Assembly (NCBI GenBank): GCA_019636795.1
Contig: JAHBWW010000004.1
Span: 310,001-374,000 of the forward strand
Source of the DNA: Phycisphaeraceae bacterium
Lineage (GTDB): Bacteria > Planctomycetota > Phycisphaerae > Phycisphaerales > UBA1924
Direction of reading: 5' to 3'
DNA length: 64,000 nucleotides
This document shows positions 14,406-20,990 of this stretch, piece by piece (position 1 is the stretch's first letter; each line of letters opens with the position of its first letter). The position numbers and the translations under genes are program-made. The notes below the pieces were generated by a model. It made no database searches and was not told the DNA's origin. It saw only the letters and a list, made by a program, of their open reading frames with translations.

Positions 14406-14798
14406 TCAATCGAACCTGAATACACCCTTGCGAAAACCGTACAAATAGGCCACAACTGTGGTGAACAGGAAAAAGAGAATACGGACGAGCCAGATGAGGC
14501 TCTGGTCGCTGCCAGGCTGGAGGTTTGCGAACGTGGCTGCCCAAGGATACAGGAACACGACTTCAACGTCGAACACAAGGAAGACCATCGCGATGAGGTA
14601 AAAGCGCACGTTGAAGCGTTTGCGAGCGGTAGCCACGGGGGTCATGCCGCTTTCGTACGCGACCCCTTTGGTCTTGCCCTCGCGCTTAGGGCCGATGATG
14701 AGGGTGGCGACCACGTTGCCCACGCCAAAGGCAATTGCAGCCATGAGCATGAGAAAAATCGGGAGATACGCGGAAACATCGGTGGACGCGAGAAGCAT
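14406..14798 (-). CDS. nuoA: NADH-quinone oxidoreductase subunit A
   Basis: Membrane subunit of respiratory complex I. Three helices and the conserved YESGMTPVATARKRFNVRFYL and FDVEVVFLYPWA (each shown in part) identify NuoA/NdhC. The 130-residue length fits. I prefer the ATG at 14798 because GGAG lies 11 bases upstream; an ATG at 14831 is also in frame. Odd: no other nuo gene lies beside it. The next gene on this strand is the EAL protein and upstream is the divergent groEL region, so the rest of complex I must lie elsewhere. Confidence 0.93.
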   Translation of the reverse strand: MLLASTDVSAYLPIFLMLMAAIAFGVGNVVATLIIGPKREGKTKGVAYESGMTPVATARKRFNVRFYLIAMVFLVFDVEVVFLYPWAATFANLQPGSDQSLIWLVRILFFLFTTVVAYLYGFRKGVFRFD

Positions 14799-15020
14799 GG
14801 GTAATTCGGTCTCCACTGGGGGTCGAATCATAGCAGGTTCATGTCGCCGTTGTGCGCGGCGGGTCGGAGCGTCGGGTACGACGGACTGTGGAGGCCGACG
14901 AGTGCCTCTACGAGATACGGGGGTAGCCTGAGTCGGACTGACCCTGCCAATTCGGCAGGCGCGTCAGCTCGGCACACCACGGCTGACAGGCCACATGCCA
15001 CTCTTCTGTATGTGGAAATG

Positions 15021-15040
15021 GCTGTAAAAGGCTTTACAGC
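15021..15040 (+). promoter_or_regulatory. Perfect inverted repeat upstream of groEL promoter
   Basis: GCTGTAAAAGGCTTTACAGC: two perfect 8-bp arms with a 4-base spacer. It is centred about 49 bases upstream of the -12 element of the sigma-54-like promoter. A regulator or enhancer-binding protein site is likely, but which protein is unknown. Confidence 0.55.
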
Positions 15041-15064
15041 ATAGTTTTGCAGTCTTTCGAGCAC

Positions 15065-15081
15065 TTGGCACGACAGTTGCC
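15065..15081 (+). promoter_or_regulatory. Sigma-54-type (-24/-12) promoter for groEL
   Basis: TTGGCACGACAGTTGCC matches the RpoN consensus (TGGCACG, four bases, TTGC). The GG and GC dinucleotides are exactly 10 bases apart. Transcription would start near 15092, giving a leader of about 108 bases before the groEL ATG at 15200. Such promoters need an activator ATPase, so control would differ from the usual HrcA or heat-shock sigma factor. Confidence 0.65.
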
Positions 15082-15199
15082 TTATCACTTGTGTCGGGAT
15101 ATCGGTGCCTCCGTGAGGCATCGTCACCTTTGACAGAATCATTGGGCACTGAGAGGACGGGGCCCGATGCAGGACGTTTCAACAACGGAGCACAGAAGC

Positions 15200-16945
15200 A
15201 TGGCTACCAAGGAACTGGTCTTTGATATCGAAGCACGTCAAGCCCTTCTCTCGGGCGTCGAAAAACTCGCCAAGGCGGTCAAGGCGACCTTGGGCCCACG
15301 CGGGCGCAATGCGGTCATCGACAAGTCGTGGGGCGGTCCGAGCGTGACCAAGGACGGCGTCACCGTCGCTGAGGAAATCGAACTGATCAACAAGGCAGAG
15401 AACATGGGAGCCTTGCTCGTCAAGGAAGCCGCGAGCAAGACATCGGACGTTGCGGGCGATGGCACGACGACGGCCACGGTGCTTGCCGAGGCCTTGTTCC
15501 GCGAAGGTCTGAGGCACATCGCTGCGGGCGTCGACGCCAACGCGCTGGTTCGCGGCCTGAAGAAGGCCGTCGAGGTCGCGACCAAGAGCATCGACGAAAT
15601 GGCAACACCCATCAAGGGCAAGCAGGACATCGCGAATGTCGCCTCGATCAGTGCCAACAACGATCCCGAGATCGGCAAGATCATGGCAGACGCGTTCGAA
15701 AAGGTCGGCAAGGACGGCGTAATCACGGTCGAAGAAGGCAAGAGCCTGGAAACCGAAGTAACGGTCGTCGAGGGCATGCAGTTCGATCGCGGCTATCTGT
15801 CACCGAACTTCGTGACGAATGTCGATGACATGAAGGTCGAGTTTGACAAGTGCCTGGTGCTGGTGCATGAGGACAAGATCGACAATATTTCGAAACTTGT
15901 GCCTTTGCTCGAAAAAGTGATGCAGGCCAAGAAGCCTCTGGTCATTATCGCTGAGGACGTGACCGGCGAGGCGTTGAGCACACTGGTGATCAACAAGCTG
16001 CGTGGCACACTTCAGGTCTGTGCTGTCAAGGCTCCGGGGTATGGCGATCGTCGTAAGGCAATGCTTCAGGACCTCGCGGTGCTGACGGGCGGCAAGGCAT
16101 TCATGAAGGATCTGGGCGTCGAGCTCGACAAGATCGACTTGGCGGAGCTTGGTCTGGCCAAGAAGATCGAGATTACGAGCGACACGACGACCGTGATCGA
16201 GGGTGCGGGCGCGACCAAGGACATTCAGGCCCGGATCGGCCAGATCCGCAACGAGATCGAGAACGCCTCAAGCGACTACGACCGCGAGAAACTGCAGGAA
16301 CGCCTCGCGAAGCTCGCGGGCGGCGTGGCGCAAATCAATGTTGGCGCTGCTTCGGAGGCTGAACTCAAGGAAAAGAAGGCTCGCGTCGAGGATGCCCTGC
16401 ATGCGACGCGTGCTGCAGTGGCCGAGGGCATTGTGCCCGGTGGCGGCGTGTCATTCATTCGCGCACGCAAAGCGATCGAAGGCCTGAAAGAATGGAAAGC
16501 CGTTTTTGGCAAGGGTGATGTGTCCGCGAGCGAATTCGGACACGTCAAGTACGACTACGCAGCCGGGATGCAGGTTGTGCACAGTGCACTTCAAGTTCCG
16601 TTGCGGACCATCGCAGAAAATGCTGGCGCGAAGGGTACAGTCGTGGTGTCGAAGGTCGCGGAATCGACTGACGTGAATTTCGGCTACAACGCGCTGACGG
16701 ATACATACGAGAACCTGCTCAAGTCGGGCGTGATTACCCCTGCCAAGGTTGATCGCTCAGCACTGCAGAATGCGGCAAGCGTGGCGACAATCCTTCTCGC
16801 AGCCGATTGCATCGTCACAGAAAAGCCGGAACCGAAGAGCGAGCACGCGGGGCATGACCACGGCCACGGCGGAGGCATGGGAGGTGGCATGGGCGGCATG
16901 CCGGGCATGGGTGGCATGGGTGGCATGGGCGGGATGGGGTTCTAG
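15200..16945 (+). CDS. groEL: Chaperonin GroEL, first copy (GGM tail)
   Basis: 60-kDa chaperonin that folds proteins in an ATP-driven cage with GroES. It carries the ATP-site block [45 protein letters not shown] and [11 protein letters not shown]. The tail ends in repeated GGM units ([16 protein letters not shown]), as in housekeeping GroELs, preceded by the histidine-rich HAGHDHGHG. GroEL-type length plus about 30 residues (581 aa). Start at the ATG at 15200 with GGAG nine bases upstream. Unusual order: groEL comes before groES and is followed by a second groEL. Confidence 0.96.
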
Positions 16946-17054
16946 TCCCTCTGGCCAACAATCGGTCGTATAACAACGCATCAGCGTTTACAACATCGCA
17001 CAACTGACCCTGACCACGAGTCACGGAGTCATGCAACACAACAGGAGATAGTCA

Positions 17055-17342
17055 ATGGCAGTCAAACCACTTGAAGATCGTGTCCTTGTCAAGCCCATCG
17101 AACCCGAAACGAAGACAGCCAGCGGGCTTTATCTTCCCGAAGGCGCGAAGGAAAAGCCGATTCAGGGCGAAGTCATCGCGACCGGACCTGGCAAACTCCT
17201 CGAGAACGGCAAGCGGGCCGAGTTGAGCGTGCGCAAGGGTGACCGCGTCGTCTATGGCAAATACGCTGGGACTGAAGTCGAAATCAAGGGTACCAAGCAC
17301 CTCATTCTGCGTGAGACGGAACTGCTCGGCGTTATCGAGTAA
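17055..17342 (+). CDS. groES: Co-chaperonin GroES
   Basis: Heptameric lid of the GroEL cage. 95 residues with the family blocks KPLEDRVLVKPIEPE, the mobile loop ETKTASGLYLPEGAKEKP (shown in part), KGDRVVYGKYAGTEVEIKG and LRETELLGVIE. AGGAG lies eight bases before the ATG. It stands between two groEL genes and may serve both. Confidence 0.96.
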   Translation: MAVKPLEDRVLVKPIEPETKTASGLYLPEGAKEKPIQGEVIATGPGKLLENGKRAELSVRKGDRVVYGKYAGTEVEIKGTKHLILRETELLGVIE

Positions 17343-17437
17343 GACCAGTAGCACGGAACCGGGCAGCGATGAAGATGGATTGAGCTGCGAGCAAAGTCTC
17401 GACAGGCTCTCAGGCAGAACACAGAAGGAACAACGCG

Positions 17438-19051
17438 ATGGCAAAGAAGCAGATCATGTTTGACGATGCGGCCCTGCTCGAAATGAAAAAGGGTGTGGAT
17501 CGTCTTGCGGAAGCGGTCAAATGCACGATGGGCCCGAGTGGGCGGCATGTGGTGATCGAGAAGTCGTACGGCGGTCCTCATGTGACCAAGGACGGCGTGA
17601 CGGTGGCGAAGGAAATCACGCTGCCTGAGCCGTTCGAGTCGATGGGTGCAAAGATGGTACACGAAGTCGCGAAGCGCACTGCCGACAACGCTGGAGACGG
17701 CACGACGGCGGCGACTGTCCTGGCACAGGCAATCTTCAACGAAGGTCTCAAGGCGGTGGCTTCGGGGTACAACCCGATTCATCTTCAGCGCGGGATCAAC
17801 AAAGCGGCCGAAGCAGCAGCAGAGGCGATTGACGCAATGGCGATTCCGTGCAAGGGCAAAGCCGACTACAAGAAGGTTGCGACTGTCTCGGCCAATCACA
17901 ACGCCGAGGTCGGGGAACTGATCGCCGAGGCGATAGCCAAAGTCGGGCCGGATGGTGTCGTTGAGGTCGAGGACGGCAAGAGTGCGGAGACGACGCTGGA
18001 GTATGTTGAGGGCATGCAGTTCGACAAGGGATATCTTTCGCCCTACTTCATGACAGACCCCAAGACGGGCGAGGCAGTGCTCGAAGACTGCTACCTGCTG
18101 ATTCAGGAAAAGAAGATCAGCAGCCTGCCGGATCTCTTGCCGCTGCTCAACAAGATCGCGGGCACCGGAAAGCCACTGCTCATCATTGCCGAAGATGTCG
18201 AGAACGAGGCATTGGCAGCGTTGGTTGTCAATCGTCTTCGTGGCGTGCTCAAAGTTTGTGCGGTCAAGGCTCCTGGCTTTGGTGACCGTCGCAAGGCCAT
18301 GCTTGGCGACATTGCGGTGCTGACCGCGGGAACATACTTTGCCGAGGATCTCGGGCGATCGCTCGAGTCTGTTGAACTCACGGAGCTTGGTCGCGCGAAG
18401 AAGATCGTCGTGACCAAGGATGACACTACGGTGATCGAAGGTGCTGGCAAGAAGAAGGACATCGATCAGCGTGCGGCGCAGATTCTTTCACAGCATGAAA
18501 AATCGACCAGTGACTACGACCGTGAGAAGCTGATGGAGCGTCACGCGAAGTTGACCGGTGGCGTTGCAATTCTGTCGGTCGGAGGCGCGACCGAGCAGGC
18601 GCAGAAAGCTCTCAAGGATCTGGTCGACGACGCGATGCACGCAACACGGGCTGCGGCCAAGAACGGGTATGTGCCGGGCGGCGGCGTGGCACTGTTGCGG
18701 ACGATCGGCGCAATCGATAATGCGAAGAAGAAGGCCAAGGGCGACGAGAAGATTGGCTTTGACATCGTTGCCAAGGCGGTTGAGTTCCCGGCGTGGCAGA
18801 TCGCTCAGAACGCCGGGTATGACGGCGATCTTGCTGTCGAAGCAATTCTCAGTGGCGAAGGGGGCTTCGGACTTGACGCTTCTTCAGGCGACTACATCGA
18901 CCTGATCAAAGCAGGGATCATCGATCCGGCGCTGGTGGCCAAGAGTGCACTGGTCAATGCAGCGAGTGTTGCGGGTCTGATGCTGACGACCGATGTCATG
19001 GTGACGGATCTGAAAGAGGAAGCCAAGCCAGTTGTTGGCGCGGTGAGCTGA
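17438..19051 (+). CDS. groEL: Chaperonin GroEL, second copy (no GGM tail)
   Basis: Second GroEL, 537 residues. It keeps the ATP-binding block [45 protein letters not shown] and [11 protein letters not shown] but ends [14 protein letters not shown] without any GGM repeat, unlike the copy at 15200. The two differ throughout, so the duplication is old. AAGGAA precedes the ATG. It follows groES by 95 bp. Paralogues lacking the GGM tail are often specialised for particular substrates or conditions (known for other phyla; inference here). Confidence 0.95.
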
Positions 19052-19182: not shown

Positions 19183-20325
19183 ATGCCTACCACGCGTGAC
19201 TACTACGAAGTTCTCAGCGTCGAACGCACGACGGACGGCGAGGAGATCAAGCGCGCGTATCGGCGTTTGGCGATGAAATATCACCCGGACCGCAATCCGG
19301 GCGACGCCGAGGCCGAGGCAAAATTCAAGGAATGTGCCGAAGCGTATGAGGTGCTTTCTGACCCCGAACGCCGAGCGCGGTATGACCAGTTCGGGCACGA
19401 GGGGCTTCGCGGAGCGGGCGCGGCGGCGCATGACTTCAGCCGCATGAATGTCGAAGATATCTTCTCGATGTTTAACGACATCTTCGGCGGCGGCGGAGCA
19501 CGCGGCGGAGGACGGCGAGTCGCTCGTGGATACGACCTGGAAACAGAAGTCTCGCTGAGCCTTACCGACGTACTCAATGGCTGCGAGCGCGAAGTCGAAT
19601 TCACACGCATGGATGTGTGCGAAACCTGCGGGGGTGATGGTGCAAAGGTTGGCACAAAACCCAAGACGTGCGAGACATGTGGCGGACACGGCAAAGTTCA
19701 GCAAGCGGGCCTCGGCGGGATGTTCCGCATGGTTGTAGCGTGTCCGCATTGCCGCGGGCGCGGGACGGTCATTGAGGAAAAATGCGGCTCGTGCCGAGGC
19801 AAGGGGCGCGTGCCGAAAAAGCGCACGCTGAACGTCAAGATTCCTCGTGGGATTCATCACGGCCAGGCTGTGCGCGTGCAGGGCGAGGGCGAGCCACCTG
19901 CGACTGAAGCGTCGGTCAATGGCGACGGGATGCGTGGCGATCTGCATGTAGTCGTCAATGTCAAGTCACATGAATTGTTCGTGCGCGAGGGCGATCATCT
20001 GATGATGGAGATGCCGATCACCTTCACACAGGCTTCGCTCGGGGCCGAGGTGGAGGTGCCGACGCTCGATGGCTCGCAGACGTTTACGATACCGCGTGGT
20101 ACACAGCACGGAGCGATCTTCCGGCTCGAAGGAAAGGGTTTGCCAGATCTTCGCAATGGTCGGCGGGGAGATCAGATCGTCGTCGCTCGGATAGAGATCC
20201 CCAAAAAACTGACTTCGACTCAGGAGAAACTGCTGCGAGACTTCGCAGCAACCGAGGACCATCGTGTGATGCCCGAGAGCCACGGCTTCTGGAAGCGGAT
20301 GAAGGATCTTCTCGGCGGTTCTTGA
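19183..20325 (+). CDS. dnaJ: Chaperone DnaJ
   Basis: Hsp40 co-chaperone that stimulates DnaK ATPase and delivers substrates. J domain at residues 4-70 with HPD in KYHPDRNPGD; Gly-rich linker (FGGGGARGGGRR); four zinc-binding CxxCxGxG repeats (CETCGGDG, CETCGGHG, CPHCRGRG, CGSCRGKG); C-terminal substrate-binding domain with TLDGSQTFTIPRGTQHG. 380 residues is normal. grpE follows; no dnaK is in the window. Confidence 0.96.
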   Translation: MPTTRDYYEVLSVERTTDGEEIKRAYRRLAMKYHPDRNPGDAEAEAKFKECAEAYEVLSDPERRARYDQFGHEGLRGAGAAAHDFSRMNVEDIFSMFNDIFGGGGARGGGRRVARGYDLETEVSLSLTDVLNGCEREVEFTRMDVCETCGGDGAKVGTKPKTCETCGGHGKVQQAGLGGMFRMVVACPHCRGRGTVIEEKCGSCRGKGRVPKKRTLNVKIPRGIHHGQAVRVQGEGEPPATEASVNGDGMRGDLHVVVNVKSHELFVREGDHLMMEMPITFTQASLGAEVEVPTLDGSQTFTIPRGTQHGAIFRLEGKGLPDLRNGRRGDQIVVARIEIPKKLTSTQEKLLRDFAATEDHRVMPESHGFWKRMKDLLGGS

Positions 20326-20366
20326 TCGATTTGAGCGACACATTACATTGTGGCGGAGTGCAAAGC

Positions 20367-20990
20367 ATGACCCAAGATACGGAAAGCGACATGACAAGCG
20401 AGCAGGACGCACAACGCAATGACTTGGGCATGGTTGAGCAGGTACGAGAGGCCGTGCGCCGAGGTGACCTTGAGGTCCCGACTGGAGCCGAGGATATCGT
20501 GCTCGCGCTGCGTGCATCGATGGCCGAGTACGACGAATTGTTTGGGCGGTTTCAAAGGCTTGCAGCAGATTTTGCGAACTTTCAAAGGCGCGCTTCAACG
20601 AACGAACGTGAGGCCAGGTCGCAGGCAACCATTGGAGCGATTCGCAGTGTTATTCCAGTGATGGATCAGTTCGACCTGGCACTCGGGCAGGACTCATCGA
20701 AGAGCACTGCGGAGCAGATTGTCGGCGGAGTGCGCATGATTCGCGATGAACTGATGCGGGTTCTCGCGGGTTTTGGTGTAACAGCGATCGAGCCAAAACC
20801 CAATGACGAGTTTGATCCCGCGGCGCATGAGGCCATGCTCCAGCAAGCATCGCCAGAGGTTGATCCGGGGCGTGTCGTGCAGACCTTTGGAGTCGGATAT
20901 CGCATGGGTGACCGCGTCATCCGACCGGCGAAAGTATCCGTTGCCGCCGTGCAGACCAGCCGAGAATCCGGCCAATCGGAAGGGGCGTGA
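20367..20990 (+). CDS. grpE: Nucleotide exchange factor GrpE
   Basis: Releases ADP from DnaK so the chaperone can cycle. An N-terminal acidic helix leads to the coiled coil and to the signature FANFQRRASTNEREA, then VIPVMDQFDLAL and the C-terminal beta domain ending VGYRMGDRVIRPAKVSVA. I use the ATG at 20367 with GGAG eight bases before it; a TTG overlapping the dnaJ stop is in frame but less likely. It is followed by the FmdB-type gene after 3 bp. Confidence 0.94.
   Translation: MTQDTESDMTSEQDAQRNDLGMVEQVREAVRRGDLEVPTGAEDIVLALRASMAEYDELFGRFQRLAADFANFQRRASTNEREARSQATIGAIRSVIPVMDQFDLALGQDSSKSTAEQIVGGVRMIRDELMRVLAGFGVTAIEPKPNDEFDPAAHEAMLQQASPEVDPGRVVQTFGVGYRMGDRVIRPAKVSVAAVQTSRESGQSEGA

Follow-up and report, generated by a model that had tools for sequence, protein, structure and literature searches.

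A phased palindrome shared by predicted sigma-54 promoters of groEL, dnaK and clpB in planctomycete bacteria

Known bacterial heat-shock responses mostly use sigma-32, HrcA/CIRCE, HspR or CtsR. Enhancer-dependent transcription is typically laid out as a sigma-54 promoter with a palindrome placed at a distance upstream and in helical phase with it, and enhancers of the NifA type have the pattern TGT-N10-ACA. In Bradyrhizobium, the chaperonin operon groESL3 is reportedly under NifA/RpoN control, with a sigma-54 promoter and a distant enhancer; it is one symbiosis-linked copy among several, whereas in the genome described here a putative enhancer is common to dnaK, clpB and the first groEL operon. 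The sigma-54 enhancer-binding proteins (bEBPs) of Pirellula sp. strain 1 are said to have been treated by Studholme and Dixon in 2004. In Chlamydia, the heat-shock operon hrcA-grpE-dnaK has tandem sigma-54 and sigma-66 promoters and AtoC as activator; HrcA also controls that operon, and rpoN falls on heat shock (PMC8762339). In contrast, no HrcA was found in the genome studied here, and one proposed enhancer is common to dnaK, groEL and clpB. In Myxococcus, an NtrC-like response regulator of the HsfA/HsfB system controls the heat-shock gene lonD, and the regulator proposed below is likewise of NtrC type, but the targets described in Myxococcus are lonD and secondary-metabolite genes, with no chaperone-wide regulon noted there (PMC9109919).

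For planctomycetes themselves, groEL, dnaK, clpB, dnaJ and grpE of R. baltica were reported to be heat-induced, while no heat regulation of rpoN was observed (PMC2754498). The lack of rpoN regulation counts against the proposal made below, though a bEBP need not alter the level of rpoN. The same report states that heat-shock control in planctomycetes suggests a significantly different response cascade, and credits the prediction of a sigma-54 promoter for RB10378 to Studholme and Dixon (2004), whose study, as cited there, resembles ours in predicting sigma-54 control in a planctomycete (PMC2754498). A survey published in 2025 (PLoS One e0327805, PMC12316311) found that predicted sigma-54 promoters of Planctomycetota are enriched at the GroEL, GroES, DnaK, DnaJ, GrpE and IbpA COGs and at proteases (COG0542, for example), mainly in Planctomycetia and less in Phycisphaerae; for Bacteroidota, it refers to grpE and groES as sigma-54-dependent. 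Sigma-54 enrichment at planctomycete chaperone genes is therein already predicted. That work goes by gene category, and neither "UAS" nor "upstream activat" occurs in its main text; what the present analysis adds is a palindrome phased to the promoters, the layout of the two elements and a candidate activator. Searches of the open-licence PMC literature found no description of the enhancer or its helical phasing, of the dnaK-groEL-clpB layout, or of the activator, and no such motif string occurs in the main text of a Desulfovibrio sigma-54 regulome paper (PMC4641369).

The window, a 64,000-nucleotide stretch of a Phycisphaeraceae genome (GCA_019636795.1; 3.49 Mb, 97% complete), carries a chaperone gene cluster divergent from a nuoA-like gene (Table 1). 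The closest named relatives of its groEL belong to Phycisphaerales, Planctomycetota. Two different groEL genes flank one groES (15200-19051); the tail of groEL1 is rich in His, Gly and Met, and groEL2 has no such tail. An in-frame ATG lies at 15167, upstream of the assigned groEL1 start.

Table 1. Features of the chaperone locus (positions in the window).
Feature	Position	Strand	Basis or remark
nuoA-like gene, divergent neighbour	14406-14831	-	Pfam Oxidored_q4
Conserved palindrome CTGCCAATTCGGCAG, proposed UAS	14944-14958	+	de novo motif, conservation
Accessory word CTGACAG	14983-14989	+	24 bases after palindrome; centres about 35 bp apart
Inverted repeat, 8-bp arms and 4-nt loop	15021-15040		element of the initial annotation; not conserved
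Sigma-54 -24/-12 promoter TTGGCACGACAGTTGCC	15065-15081	+	motif match, conservation in relatives
Predicted transcription start	15092	+	G of the -24 doublet (15068) plus 24
groEL1	15200-16945	+	Pfam Cpn60_TCP1, E=4e-74; start by comparison with relatives
groES	17055-17342	+	Pfam Cpn10
groEL2	17438-19051	+	Pfam Cpn60_TCP1
dnaJ	19183-20325	+	Pfam DnaJ, DnaJ_C, DnaJ_CXXCXGXG; presumed same operon
grpE	20322-20990	+	Pfam GrpE; start uncertain; presumed same operon

An initial annotation had read an RpoN -24/-12 site with 10-base GG-GC spacing in front of groEL1, and this reading holds: in TTGGCACGACAGTTGCC the GG at 15067-68 and the GC at 15079-80 are 10 bases apart. Within the window it is the sole match with at most one mismatch to the consensus TGGCACGN4TTGCW, but shuffled sequences average 0.89 such matches, so that the site taken alone has no window-wide significance. 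Genome-wide there are 36 sites with zero or one mismatch, so that any particular 150-bp stretch, read on one strand, would contain one by chance with a probability of about 1 in 1300. Looser counts (at most two mismatches) were discarded as evidence, being level with the control (283 and 276 vs 267 and 291, no enrichment). What decides that the groEL1 site is real is its conservation. The genome also encodes RpoN with its three sigma-54 domains (Pfam) and four strong bEBPs; together with conservation and the shared putative enhancer described below, rpoN strongly supports the promoter reading. As separate observations, a one-mismatch site at C1:105239-105254 (L004/L016) lies about 100 bp before the start of the rpoN ORF and possibly reflects autoregulation, and the only zero-mismatch site of the genome (C4:157331-157346, minus strand; L015, C4:155831-158846) has a one-mismatch site nearby at C4:156897, both standing at small ORFs downstream of an orphan 336-aa bEBP gene without a receiver (L008).

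Conservation was assessed on 74 non-redundant groEL upstream regions of 400 bp, the window included. These came from 20 of 80 loci on public contigs (L050-L068 and L081) and from 56 of 60 further relatives, four genomes with no complete orthologue with upstream sequence listed (G013, G025, G027, G060) being left out, as were a duplicate (L163) and two loci with short upstreams of 142 and 184 bases (L051 and L152). De novo motif search returned a CTGCCA-N3-TGGCAG palindrome first and the sigma-54 element second. The palindrome, whose conserved form is CTGYCA-N3-TGRCAG, was flagged in 72 of the 74 regions at a median of 232 bp before the start codon (the site at L064 is doubtful), and in most relatives the groEL start codon follows the -24/-12 element by some 74-206 bp. 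A further motif of the search (EM motif 2) was set aside; most of its sites fall 220-390 bp upstream of groEL and probably belong to the coding sequence of a neighbouring gene. Palindrome and sigma-54 site stand in that order, 40-175 bp apart, in 63 of the 73 relatives and in none of 30 shuffled sets (first-order Markov resampling). Taken singly, the promoter (score at least 13) is present in 65 and the palindrome in 69 of the 73, against shuffled means of 2.3 and 0.6 in that order and zero for the pair. At these thresholds the pair is missing from ten relatives (L059, L060, L062, L064, L067, L146, L149, L170, L174, L176).

In the window the palindrome stands 116 bp before the -24 box and is the only exact match to CTGYCRN3YGRCAG, with 0.13 expected. 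The genome holds ten exact copies, a number near chance (about 7 by scaling 0.13 per 64 kb), and palindromes with at most one mismatch show no enrichment genome-wide (184 vs 254 in the control). Since single elements are not enriched, it is the combination of palindrome and sigma-54 site alone that is informative: three of the ten exact copies stand before the sigma-54 sites of groEL1, dnaK and clpB, starting 65-122 bp ahead of them.

Further evidence came when 41 whole genomes of the family were searched blind with the pattern palindrome-N40..100-TGGCRYN5TTGC; this gave 44 matches in 30 genomes, against 2 for the reversed control. When traced, 23 matches preceded dnaK, 10 groEL (four by coordinates), 7 clpB and one clpP, leaving three others: a PAC2 family gene (L206) and an AAA ATPase gene (L209), both by Pfam, and a small ORF (L391). 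The DnaK and ClpB of the window's genome, used as references, carry their Pfam domains. The matches at dnaK, clpB and clpP are independent of the groEL sequences that yielded the motif. That at clpP (L216 in genome G032, by Pfam) may extend the regulon to proteolysis. Both elements are present at groEL1, dnaK and clpB of the window's own genome, where the 40-100 limit on the gap missed groEL1 (gap 107) and dnaK (gap 103). At the level of sequence, promoters of dnaK, groEL and clpB have one putative enhancer and one type of sigma factor in common. For groEL3 of the same genome, a one-mismatch palindrome and a weaker sigma-54 site (distance 103) were found about 1.4 kb upstream, before a small receiver-like ORF that precedes the gene; no sigma-54 site was found within 700 bp directly before groEL3, so its membership of the regulon rests on presumed co-transcription. 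A small receiver-like ORF (Response_reg below cut-off) with palindrome and sigma-54 site at its start precedes a groEL paralogue both here (L321) and in genome G003 (L391), and is possibly a co-regulated partner of the adjoining groEL.

Spacing between the two elements follows the turn of the helix. At dnaK (n=23), distances from the palindrome centre to the GG of the -24 box are 69, 78-81, 89-92, 99-102 and 109, a ladder with R=0.78 at 10.25-10.5 bp that none of 20000 uniform draws equalled (Rayleigh p about 8e-7, although p-values of this kind overstate significance because the genomes are related). At clpB (n=7) the distances are 59, 59, 71, 89, 89, 90 and 101, in the same phase as dnaK at 10.5 bp. 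The groEL distances, counted on the 64 sequences above the score thresholds, peak near 91, 102, 113, 125, 135 and 145, with R=0.46 at 10.5 bp and 0.53 at 11 bp, the best period; with a 10.5-bp period, groEL and dnaK differ in phase by about 2 bp (8.4 vs 6.1). The main groEL mode is at 112-114, and the window, with a distance of 116, deviates from it by 2-3 bp. No comparable period was seen in the groEL set when promoters were measured from the start codon. Across these promoter sets the proposed UAS is hence in helical phase with the promoter, and a ladder of this kind is what would be expected of enhancer looping.

In 24 of 64 groEL upstreams (0.5 on average after shuffling) a shorter word, CTGACAG or CTGTCAG, occurs in the interval from palindrome to promoter, starting 23-25 bases after the palindrome in 21 of the 24 (11 CTGACAG, 10 CTGTCAG). 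It resembles a half-site and is possibly a second activator contact. The stricter idea that it marks another activator site at a distance of three turns was abandoned, since both orientations of the word occur. The word is absent at 17 dnaK and 4 clpB promoters, and the three of 29 promoters that have it are all groEL promoters.

The element to which the initial annotation had given the role of an upstream repeat, and by implication of an enhancer, is a different one. It was described as a perfect 20-bp inverted repeat centred 49 bp from the -12 element; the centre is right, but the repeat is not perfect, with arms GCTGTAAA and TTTACAGC around AGGC and pairing at 16 of 20 positions. Eighteen repeats of equal quality (8-bp arms, spacer 0-10) occur in the window, and the full motif occurs once in the genome. 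Followed into related genomes, the sigma-54 site recurs as given above, while the repeat is confined to the window: it is absent from the palindrome-to--24 stretch of the 63 other groEL upstreams, where the next best match has 4 mismatches. A single genome copy, present in one of 64 upstreams, rules it out as a conserved enhancer, and the conserved element lies about 80 bp further upstream. That the repeat instead serves as a lineage-specific second control, a bend site or a terminator-like hairpin seems unlikely to us. It does score as a terminator-like hairpin, 10 of 64 groEL upstreams have CTGTAA/TTACAG words in the palindrome-to-promoter interval (1.0 on average after shuffling), and the AT-richest DNA upstream of the -24 box falls 31-50 bp before the box (GC 0.53-0.54 over 64 upstreams); yet none of the 63 other stretches has the full repeat, and nuoA, the gene upstream of it, is on the opposite strand, so that no plus-strand gene ends just before it. 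Across relatives the 21-60 bp before the -24 box (window 15010-15060) are AT-richer, with GC down to 0.53, and this CTGTAA/TTACAG-enriched stretch is a possible bend site or site of a further regulator.

Other readings concern the palindrome itself. Control by CIRCE and HrcA shares with our proposal a palindrome at groEL, but here the element is far upstream and phased to a sigma-54 box, an arrangement that suggests activation and not repression. We agree with the initial annotation that CIRCE is lacking: between 14701 and 15300 the closest match to its consensus has 8 mismatches, and a search of the genome (97% complete) turned up no HrcA gene, on which grounds this control was rejected. More broadly, the palindrome might be the operator of a classical heat-shock repressor or another non-bEBP regulator, the sigma-54 box adding basal or nitrogen-linked expression. 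A repressor regulon would likewise show a palindrome common to dnaK, groEL and clpB, but we consider such a scheme improbable given that the palindrome is 48-172 bp upstream of the -24 box at groEL (80-151 in 61 of 64) and 59-109 bp upstream at dnaK and clpB, on a helical ladder and not over the promoter; the failure to find HrcA, or a sigma-70-type promoter in a scan of 14820-15220, points the same way. It is scarcely credible, and largely refuted, that the palindrome serves the divergent nuoA operon and is conserved near groEL incidentally. In the window it does lie between nuoA and groEL, but elsewhere it also stands before dnaK, clpB and clpP, and at groEL and dnaK it keeps a phased distance to the sigma-54 boxes.

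If an activator binds the palindrome, its identity has to be sought among the bEBPs, of which 15 Phycisphaerales genomes gave 89 strong matches. Grouped by DNA-binding helix, group C recurs in 15 of 15 genomes, group B in 15 of 15 (14 by script and L267 by hand) and group A in 14 of 15, with mean pairwise HTH identities of 0.85, 0.70 and 0.62, respectively. In the window's genome the group C gene (G000, C1:124611-126065) lies outside the window; its product is of NtrC type, with receiver (PF00072), sigma-54 interaction (PF00158) and Fis-type HTH (PF02954) domains and GAYTGA as the AAA+ loop. The gene stands between a Nif3-like gene (by reading) and an HDOD-GGDEF-receiver gene, with no adjoining histidine kinase gene. 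From the phyletic pattern, this orphan NtrC-type response regulator is the likeliest activator. Of 25 wider planctomycete genomes, 19 have a gene resembling group C whose helix reads G[EA]RT-x-YR, and one more has a truncated copy; such a gene is carried by 15 of the 18 outside genomes that have the pair at groEL and by 5 of the 7 that lack it, which does not discriminate, and support for the wide C clade is 0.32, so that the pattern is a pointer to group C and no proof. Some group C proteins (L325, L329, L335, L336, L339) have GART for GERT in the recognition helix.

That another bEBP is the activator, whether of group B (L006 type), of group A (L007 type) or lineage-specific, is a lesser but substantial possibility. 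Group B is as universal in the 15 Phycisphaerales genomes as group C, and group A nearly so, and no bEBP gene of the 89, in group C or otherwise, is preceded by palindrome and sigma-54 site, a result on which bEBP autoregulation through the palindrome was also rejected. On the other hand, relatives of group B in a well-supported clade were found in 5 to 8 of the 25 wider genomes (among the best 30 loci), whereas 18 of the 25 have the pair at groEL, and the group B gene adjoins a histidine kinase gene; group A is absent from G010, a genome 95% complete in which groEL and dnaK are each preceded by the two elements. A weaker palindrome match (10.6), unaccompanied by a sigma-54 site, was seen 92 bp before the L298 gene.

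Beyond the family, all 80 loci from public contigs were scanned for the pair and for CIRCE. Among 40 groEL loci that are planctomycete by record title, Blastopirellula marina and Rubripirellula included, 29 carry the palindrome and the sigma-54 site 40-175 bp apart, and CIRCE, looked for with simple patterns, appears at none. The other 40 (one of which, L084, has a title without a phylum) yielded no locus with both elements and 20 with a CIRCE-like sequence by the same patterns. Eleven planctomycete loci were not counted as having the pair: L051 and L060, which have short upstreams, and L059, L062, L064, L067, L092, L093, L100, L103 and L117. The initial annotation expected main chaperonin control by sigma-54 to be unusual, which is sound for bacteria at large; among the planctomycete loci examined, however, the layout is common at groEL (the 29 of 40) and extends to dnaK and clpB.

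Putting these observations together, we consider it highly probable that groEL1-groES-groEL2(-dnaJ-grpE), dnaK and clpB form a heat-shock regulon of sigma-54 and one bEBP acting through the shared palindrome. Predicted promoter and putative enhancer are conserved in sequence, order and phase, and occur together at dnaK, groEL and clpB; that the palindrome binds a bEBP, that this bEBP is of group C and that heat or misfolded protein is the inducer, we infer. In the proposed mechanism, sigma-54 RNA polymerase would wait in a closed complex at the -24/-12 element until folding stress activated the bEBP, which would oligomerise on the palindrome. The DNA between would loop, bringing activator and polymerase together on the same helical face, and ATP hydrolysis would open the promoter. 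The groEL1-groES-groEL2(-dnaJ-grpE) operon would thereby be transcribed from 15065-15081 and activated from 14944-14958, perhaps helped by 14983-14989, and the weaker pair before the small ORF upstream of groEL3 would join the regulon. Under sigma-54, every promoter opening in the regulon would consume ATP and depend on an activator, and stress sensing would therefore lie in the bEBP.

For the phylum, the evidence leaves us evenly divided on whether, in much of Planctomycetota, the cytosolic heat-shock genes groEL, dnaK and clpB (and clpP in some lineages) are under one orphan NtrC-type bEBP acting on CTGYCAN3TGRCAG, in place of HrcA/CIRCE or sigma-32. Such control would resemble the wiring of nitrogen regulation and not the usual controls of bacterial heat shock. 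The analysis yields a concrete and testable enhancer, regulon and candidate regulator and, if the proposal is true, it would explain how chaperones are controlled in planctomycetes without CIRCE at groEL.
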